Assembly (NCBI GenBank): GCA_022842205.1
Contig: JALHQA010000002.1
Span: forward strand, 124,001 to 188,000
Length of the DNA stretch: 64,000 nt
Reading direction: 5' to 3'
From: Hyphomicrobiales bacterium
GTDB taxonomy: Bacteria; Pseudomonadota; Alphaproteobacteria; Rhizobiales; Methylopilaceae
Positions 13,138 to 63,062 of this stretch are shown here, piece after piece (position 1 is the first letter of the stretch; every line of letters starts with the position of its first letter). Below the pieces are notes generated by a model. The model made no database searches. It saw only the letters and a list, made by a program, of their open reading frames with translations, and had not been told where the DNA came from. Made by a program: the position numbers and the translations under genes.

Positions 13138-13518
<381 letters not shown>

Positions 13519-26569: not shown

Positions 26570-26578
26570 AAATAATCC

Positions 26579-26607
26579 TTGACTTTATTCCTATAGTGTG
26601 TTTTACT
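26579..26607 (+). promoter_or_regulatory. Housekeeping-type promoter of ncRNA copy 1
   Basis: TTGACT-N17-TTTACT; same TTGACTTTATTCCTAT string as copy 2. Confidence 0.6.
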
Positions 26608-26612
26608 GCGCG

Positions 26613-27040
26613 TACTTTCGGTCACGGAGGGCGCTCTCGCGAGGCGTCGTTTGGGTGGATCGGGAGTGCGGTGGCCGGTTGGGGTTCGCAAGCCCTGGCC
26701 GGAGGCCCAAGGCCGATGGTCCTGCTCCCTCCTGCGAGGGCGCGAGGCCTCCCTTGGTGACCTGATGTGGGACCCGTACCAACGGGACACGCAGGTCGAT
26801 GAGGCCGCCAATGGAGGAGAACAAGCCACTGTCCTCCAGGGGCCCTCGGCAGCAAGCCTCACACACCGCGCGCGGGATGCCGGGAGACGGCTTCCCCGAG
26901 GTGAGTAGACCAATTGGTTCGGTGCTTTTGCACGTTCACCGAACCGCCGAGGGAGCGGTCAATCTCCCGGCGTCCCGCGCGCCCCCTCCGGAGGGCAGAG
27001 GTGGTGACAGCCGAGCTCCCAAACACGGGAGCGGATTTCG
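26613..27040 (+). ncRNA. Candidate novel structured RNA, copy 1
   Basis: Shares ordered blocks with 62599-63062 (TTTCGGTCACGGAGGGCGC; GCAGCAAGCC; GGCTTCCCCGAGGTGAGTA; GCCGAGGGAGCGG-CAATCTCCCGGCGTCCCGCGCG); 18-bp long-range stem 26870-26887/26963-26980; stems covary between copies. Confidence 0.7.
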
Positions 27041-27068
27041 CGCGCGCGTATTCCATCGGCACCCACCG

Positions 27069-27177
27069 TCCTCATCCTGAGGAGCCGCCAAAGGCGGCGT
27101 CTCGAAGGATGGGCCGAGATTTCGGTGCCCTGACGCCCATCCTTCGAGACGGCGCTCCGCGCCTCCTCAGGATGAGG
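27069..27177. repeat. RIME-like palindromic intergenic element
   Basis: CCTCATCCTGAGGA/TCCTCAGGATGAGG 14-bp ends; GTCTCGAAGGATGGGC/GCCCATCCTTCGAGAC 16-bp inner arms; two side hairpins. Confidence 0.85.
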
Positions 27178-27298
27178 TTCGCGTCATCCGCCCCGCCAAC
27201 CCTGTGGCCAGCGCCGCTTCCGCTTGCCCGGCCCCGCGCCGCTCCCTACATTAGCGCACGCCTCGGGGCCGGGTGACCGGCGCTTTCCGCATGGCTGA

Positions 27299-56899: not shown

Positions 56900-57038
56900 T
56901 CTCATTTAGCTAAACGGAACCATCGAACGGACCCGGTGAGAATCCGGGTGGCTCTTCCGGCCGCCAATCCGCCGGACCACGCAAAAGATCATGATGTGCC
57001 GATGGCGTCCTGCGCCGCGCCGTCATGCTGCGGTTTCC
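56900..57038 (+). promoter_or_regulatory. Candidate structured leader of the sulP gene
   Basis: ACCCGGTGAGAATCCGGGT hairpin followed by GGCTCTTCCGGCCGCC; palindrome TTTAGCTAAA. Confidence 0.3.
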
Positions 57039-62477: not shown

Positions 62478-62564
62478 GGGATTCTCCGGGACATGGCGTG
62501 ACGGGACACTGTAGACGCGGCGATTGGGTAAGGCCGTTACGTAACAGTTACAGAACTTCTTTTC

Positions 62565-62593
62565 TTGACTTTATTCCTATGACCTGCTACACA
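62565..62593 (+). promoter_or_regulatory. Housekeeping-type promoter of ncRNA copy 2
   Basis: TTGACT-N17-TACACA; same -35/spacer string as copy 1. Confidence 0.6.
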
Positions 62594-62598
62594 GGGCG

Positions 62599-63062
62599 TG
62601 CTTTCGGTCACGGAGGGCGCGGTCATGAGGCGTTCTGGTTGCGGATCGGAAGTGCGGTGTTCGGCGAGGGGGTCGCTCCCTGAACCGAACGGCCCAAGGC
62701 GTGCGGTCCCGGCGGGCTCAGTACACCCGCCACAGGAGACCCCTGCGGTCGGCCGGCCCGTTAACCTCCAAACCGGGAGGCTAGAGGCTGGCACGGGGTC
62801 CCGTTAGTGGAGGCTACAAAGCTAAGCCTCCAGGGGCGAGCACGCAGCAAGCCGAAAAGACACCGTGCGCGGGACGCCGGAAGAACGGCTTCCCCGAGGT
62901 GAGTACCCAATTGATGTGGTCTTTCACTCTCTGACCACATCGCCGAGGGAGCGGCCAATCTCCCGGCGTCCCGCGCGCCCCTCCATTTCGGAGGGTGACG
63001 AGAGGACGAGGACCCGCCGGGGCGCAGAGCCCCGCGCATCGCATCCCTCCCAAACCGGAGAA
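62599..63062 (+). ncRNA. Candidate novel structured RNA, copy 2
   Basis: Paralogue of 26613-27040; 14-bp perfect stem 62867-62880/62963-62976; covarying hairpin 62913-62921/62933-62941. Confidence 0.7.

Follow-up and report, generated by a model that had tools for sequence, protein, structure and literature searches.

The window analyzed here, a stretch of 64,000 nucleotides (nt) from a Hyphomicrobiales bacterium (assembly GCA_022842205.1, contig JALHQA010000002.1), contains two copies of an RNA element of approximately 430–500 nt, of which the same 2.8-Mb genome (hereafter G000) carries about 16 dispersed copies. Copy 1 lies before trxB and copy 2 before an RDD gene. The conserved layout comprises a 5′ hairpin (P1), a second hairpin (P2), a branched center and a 3′ hairpin (P7, about 125 nt in this genus), with a stem-loop in the 3′ tail of most copies; a long-range pseudoknot joins the interior of P1 with the bases immediately past P7. 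A sequence-only reading had singled out copy 2 as a candidate structured RNA carrying compensatory changes relative to copy 1. Its position stands, with the end slightly past 63062, at approximately 63075, and the two copies of the window prove to be part of a genomic total of about 16, not two.

Fold, covariation and pseudoknot

Both copies contain the promoter string CTTGACTTTATTCCTAT (26578–26594 and 62564–62580) and the 5′ block TTTCGGTCACGGAGGGCGC (26616–26634 and 62602–62620), and none of 100 shuffles contained two occurrences. The paired differences that had been reported between the copies are all present. A 9-base-pair stem within P7 reads GGTTCGGTG/CACCGAACC in copy 1 and GATGTGGTC/GACCACATC in copy 2, both sides having changed in four of nine pairs; TGGAGGA/TCCTCCA becomes TGGAGGC/GCCTCCA, GGCCGG/CTGGCC becomes GTTCGG/CCGAAC, and a U-G pair of the long stem becomes C-G. 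The centers of the two copies belong to different module types that are approximately 53% identical; separate folds nevertheless give the same layout, and a CCAA/AGCAA internal loop is conserved in both.

Covariation extends well beyond this pair of copies. Across 19 copies, 97.2% of P7 cells are paired, as compared to 36–49% in slid controls, and seven pairs (28 cells) are changed on both sides, a number of cells that none of 500 shuffles reached. P1 is double-changed at 6 of 12 pairs (18 cells), a cell count likewise reached in none of 500 shuffles. The P7 sequences of eight copies fold with z-scores of −5.7 to −9.2 relative to shuffled sequences, and the plus strand is favored both by G-U pairs and by model score (134.6 versus 41.4 bits).

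The pseudoknot pairs GGAGGG in P1 with CCCTCC past P7. Among 21 divergent copies, pairing of each strand with its own partner scores 423.5, versus 365.3 ± 14.7 with shuffled partners (2 of 20,000 permutations), and in relatives the helix is rewritten, namely as GGAAGGCG/CGCCTTCC, GAGGGG/CCCCTC, GTGAGGG/CCCTCAC, ATGGAGGCG/CGCCTCCAT and TCAGGAG/CTCCTGA. The earlier proposal of a selected RNA fold is supported, beyond what a comparison of two copies could offer, by covariation in P7 and P1, by own-partner pairing of the pseudoknot and by homologues in four families, and pairing is maintained in the additional homologues. Because old, divergent copies retain P1, P7 and the pseudoknot, we infer that the RNA itself is under selection.

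Table 1. Positions of the parts of the two copies and of other features of the window.
Feature	Position	Strand	Details
Copy 1 RNA	~26614–27047	+	
Copy 1 promoter	26578–26607	+	
Copy 1 P1	26614–26667	+	26614–26623 pairs with 26658–26667; model R3, 76.4 bits
Copy 1 pseudoknot 5′ strand	26626–26634	+	
Copy 1 P2 and branched center (other module type)	26668–26863	+	GGCCGG/CTGGCC at 26673–26700; TGGAGGA/TCCTCCA at 26812–26838
Copy 1 P7	26864–26988	+	9-base-pair stem 26916–26924/26937–26945; model R1, 119.7 bits
Copy 1 pseudoknot 3′ strand	26977–26989	+	
Copy 1 3′ tail	26990–27047	+	GCTCCC-AAACAC-GGGAGC stem, then GGATTTCGCGCGC
Copy 2 RNA	62600 to ~63075	+	start and end are most likely positions
Copy 2 promoter	62564–62593	+	−35 TTGACT 62565–62570; 17-nt spacer; −10-like TACACA 62588–62593; predicted start ~62600
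Copy 2 P1	62600–62653	+	62600–62609 pairs with 62644–62653; model R3 match 62600–62661, 71.6 bits; covariation
Copy 2 pseudoknot 5′ strand	62612–62620	+	GGAGGGCGC, inside P1
Copy 2 P2	62659–62690	+	GTTCGG/CCGAAC
Copy 2 branched center	62691–62853	+	closed by P3 (GGCCCAAGGC... / ...GCAGCAAGCC); three internal helices, including TGGAGGC/GCCTCCA at 62808–62832
Copy 2 P7	62861–62984	+	9-base-pair stem 62913–62921/62933–62941; model R1, 134.6 bits; covariation
Copy 2 pseudoknot 3′ strand	62973–62984	+	GCGCGCCCCTCC; first bases overlap the P7 foot
Copy 2 3′ tail with terminal stem-loop	62985 to ~63075	+	predicted fold; 3′ end approximate
Palindromic repeat	27070–27178		~108 base pairs (CCTCATCCTGAGGAGC...), directly past copy 1
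RNase P RNA, class A	13143–13516		RF00010
sul1 RNA	56926–56981		RF03058; 74.9 bits

Promoter, genomic sites and distribution

The −35 (TTGACT) and −10-like (TACACA) elements lie 17 nt apart, so that the expected start is the first base of P1. The promoter string is nearly invariant among the copies of G000, and copies L049–L051 of the sister genus retain CTTGACTTTATTCCTAT; this conservation argues for a sigma-70-like promoter that would place the start at the P1 base. A generic promoter scan did not report the promoter of the element, and a strict terminator scan found no terminator at it.

Genes that neighbor the copies are unrelated and mostly have housekeeping functions (RDD, TPR_21, dnaX, gyrB/parE type, parB, PNPOx, S41 peptidase and ABC type, with trxB identified by eye). 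Occupancy of the sites turns over between related genomes. The copy-1 site is empty in the three congeners G001, G002 and G003; of these, G002 alone has the copy-2 site occupied; and at the parE-type site the DNA of G000 and G002 is collinear downstream but not upstream. The close pair G011 and G016 carry five copies each, several in non-matching flanks, and the elements in unmatched flanks are 92–94% identical. At the site of copy L166, where the flanks are 92–93% identical, G016 carries the element and G011 does not; G012 also carries it, in the same orientation, so loss in G011 is possible. Neither terminal inverted repeats nor a target duplication can be seen at this single aligned empty site, where the spacer DNA differs. 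A clean transposon insertion was considered for the site and set aside, given that the flanks match, the spacers differ and a target duplication is unreadable.

Within G000, there are two main types of 5′ module and two of center, and each of the four possible combinations occurs (L001–L005; L006–L007; L010; and L011, L012 and L014), which points to recombination or gene conversion between copies.

Several further observations concern the surroundings of the copies. One copy of G000 lies directly 5′ of the signal recognition particle RNA gene and dnaX (L003, 1472–2276), and G002 has a copy at the equivalent place. DUF559 endonuclease-like genes flank two copies (L011, 2060–2506; L013, 1056–1313). 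In two species the same gene stands on opposite sides of the element (L131/L133 and L144/L135), which suggests independent arrival or rearrangement. L214 (G012:C1:2120800–2123300) is a rare damaged copy in which unrelated sequence splits the 3′ hairpin. The separate palindromic repeat past copy 1 recurs many times in G001 and G002, often near the RNA elements. Near-identical copies of G012 (L202–L216) are preceded by an ordered array of different palindromes resembling repetitive extragenic palindromes (REPs), complete in 11 of 15 copies and mostly kept in the other four, as if array and element had been amplified together.

Searches with blastn gave 14 long matches and fragments in G000 and had suggested a repeat confined to the genus, a view overturned by covariance models for the hairpins at the 3′ and 5′ ends, which recovered relatives from the sister genus (g2) and from another three families (G019, G021 and G032). 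Homologues are thus present in four Hyphomicrobiales families (f1, f3, f5 and f16), with copy numbers per genome ranging from 0 to 25 or more, and share one order of parts, namely promoter region, P1, a GCGGYG motif, a variable center and the 3′ hairpin. Most of the other sampled families yielded nothing in searches that were non-exhaustive and scored few candidates per genome when genomes were many. The 5′ model detects 16 domains in G000 (two of them belonging to a second subfamily with the promoter CTTGACAATATTCCTATTTCATG), 19 in G002 and 3 in G003; copy counts are lower bounds, as several contigs start or stop inside a copy. G012 carries at least 25 copies, of which 15 average 96.6% identity and have unrelated 3′ flanks. 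At the other extreme, G008, G009 and G013 have one detected copy each, at a common site, which shows that the element is able to persist as a single gene. A phage or plasmid origin was rejected, as the searches made gave no matches, apart from one IMG/VR hit (L165) that has no further resemblance.

A proposed multicopy structural RNA and its rivals

On balance, we lean toward a stand-alone, trans-acting structural RNA whose copies have multiplied and spread as DNA. Each copy would be its own RNA gene, transcribed from the base of P1 by the sigma-70-like promoter, and the product would be an untranslated RNA of 430–500 nt that folds into P1, P2, the branched center and the long P7, with the loop side of P1 and the bases past P7 pairing to yield a compact pseudoknotted body. 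Because the ends are constant while the center varies in modules, the likeliest role would be that of a trans-acting structural RNA made in quantity from many loci, either as a ribonucleoprotein scaffold or self-assembling in the manner of OLE, ROOL and GOLLD. As each copy brings its promoter with it, spread would occur at the DNA level and not from the transcript, probably by duplication and gene conversion along with adjoining intergenic palindromes.

Several points weigh against this interpretation. Copy numbers from 0 to at least 25, together with turnover of sites, resemble a mobile element; the distribution is patchy, with no copy in G001 by the searches made; no protein partner of the RNA was found; and the shuffle tests leave some relatedness among copies in place. 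Despite this residual relatedness, the independent rewriting of the pseudoknot across families would be hard to explain otherwise. The sequence-only reading had posed RNA gene and mobile repeat as alternatives and had named genome-wide abundance with random insertion sites as evidence against its view. Features of each alternative are present, and the contrary evidence so named is found in part, this genome holding about 16 copies and one relative at least 25, accompanied by site turnover and shuffled modules.

The chief rival is a selfish, non-autonomous mobile element that depends on its RNA to move; the RNA might, for instance, guide or scaffold a nuclease or recombinase encoded elsewhere, and the fold would be kept by selection because only copies that make good RNA move. 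We regard this as a substantial but lesser possibility. The multiplication in G012 and to about 16 copies in G000 next to none in G001, the copy-1 site empty in three congeners, the G011/G016 difference at the L166 site and the 92–94% identical elements in unmatched flanks of that pair all fit such an element. Against it stand divergent old copies with intact folds, the lack of visible terminal inverted repeats or a target duplication at the one empty site aligned (where the spacer DNA differs and the filled state of G012 makes a loss in G011 conceivable), and a promoter that moves with each copy, which argues against retrotransposition from the transcript. Nor is a reverse transcriptase (PF00078) present in eight of nine genomes (G000, G001, G002, G003, G004, G012, G019 and G021). 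The sole match, in G008, is a reverse-transcriptase gene approximately 2 kb from the single copy L149 (G008:C1:4109060–4109647). A passive structured DNA repeat of the REP or bacterial interspersed mosaic element (BIME) kind, whose folding as RNA would be a by-product of palindromes, accommodates the REP-like palindromes that often lie beside the copies, including the G012 array; it is improbable in light of covariation on one strand that includes G-U pairs, a pseudoknot that is not palindromic, the conservation of the promoter and a body of 430–500 nt retained in four families. Least probable, to about the same degree, are two further explanations. A cis-acting, riboswitch-like leader or attenuator for a downstream gene would suit copy 2, which is co-oriented with the RDD gene about 90 nt ahead of it and has a counterpart there in G002, but 14 copies have unrelated neighbors in both orientations; unrelated neighbors make cis regulation unlikely and led to rejection of a riboswitch. 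The other is a diverged representative of an established class (HEARO or another omega RNA, a retron, a group II intron, RNase P, tmRNA, OLE, ROOL or GOLLD), as size and ornateness resembling OLE, ROOL and GOLLD (PMC12286853) might suggest; here neither the window element nor 14 other loci matched Rfam 15 at gathering score, and matches at relaxed thresholds were all far below it. A retron or group II intron, suggested by complementarity of the ends and the long hairpin, was rejected for want of a reverse transcriptase.

HEARO and other omega RNAs of IS200/IS605-type elements are structured RNAs tied to mobile DNA, of which stand-alone copies are possible. The element described here is likewise a structured RNA with mobile-DNA features, but it lacks an Rfam match, and no IscB/IsrB/TnpB-type nuclease gene occurs among the scanned neighbors, no genome-wide search for such families having been made. 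OLE, ROOL and GOLLD are large, non-coding, elaborately folded bacterial RNAs of poorly understood function (PMC12286853). The element shares with them its size, its non-coding nature and an intricate fold with covariation support; it differs in having no match to the Rfam models, no homologue recovered by the searches of the phage set and IMG/VR, many dispersed chromosomal copies and reassorted modules. REP/BIME palindromes (PMC2817692) and Br-REP1/2 of Bradyrhizobium (PMC5082802) are also dispersed intergenic repeats, and REP-like palindromes often adjoin the element, but REPs are short palindromes, in contrast to a promoter-bearing fold of 430–500 nt with a pseudoknot. The Bradyrhizobium small RNAs BjsR5, 6, 7 and 10, with 2–4 imperfect copies (PMC5082802), are likewise multicopy alphaproteobacterial RNAs. 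No published description of the element was found in the open-licence literature, and the RNA gene family is apparently undescribed. By kind it belongs with the large ornate RNAs, among which its multicopy, modular and dispersed nature is unusual.

More speculatively, the element may represent a new kind of RNA-based genetic element, namely a DNA-mobile gene that yields nothing but a large pseudoknotted RNA, whose ends stay constant while its central modules can be exchanged. This RNA would work in trans, as an RNA or ribonucleoprotein particle, and the gene would persist because the RNA drives its spread or brings the host a dosage-dependent benefit. Large structured RNAs are a small group in bacteria, mostly of open function, and the natural range of one, five, 25 or no copies in related bacteria lends itself directly to deletion, expression and structural work. 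The combination of strong selection at the RNA level with the behavior of a mobile element bears on how selfish or multicopy RNAs originate and persist.
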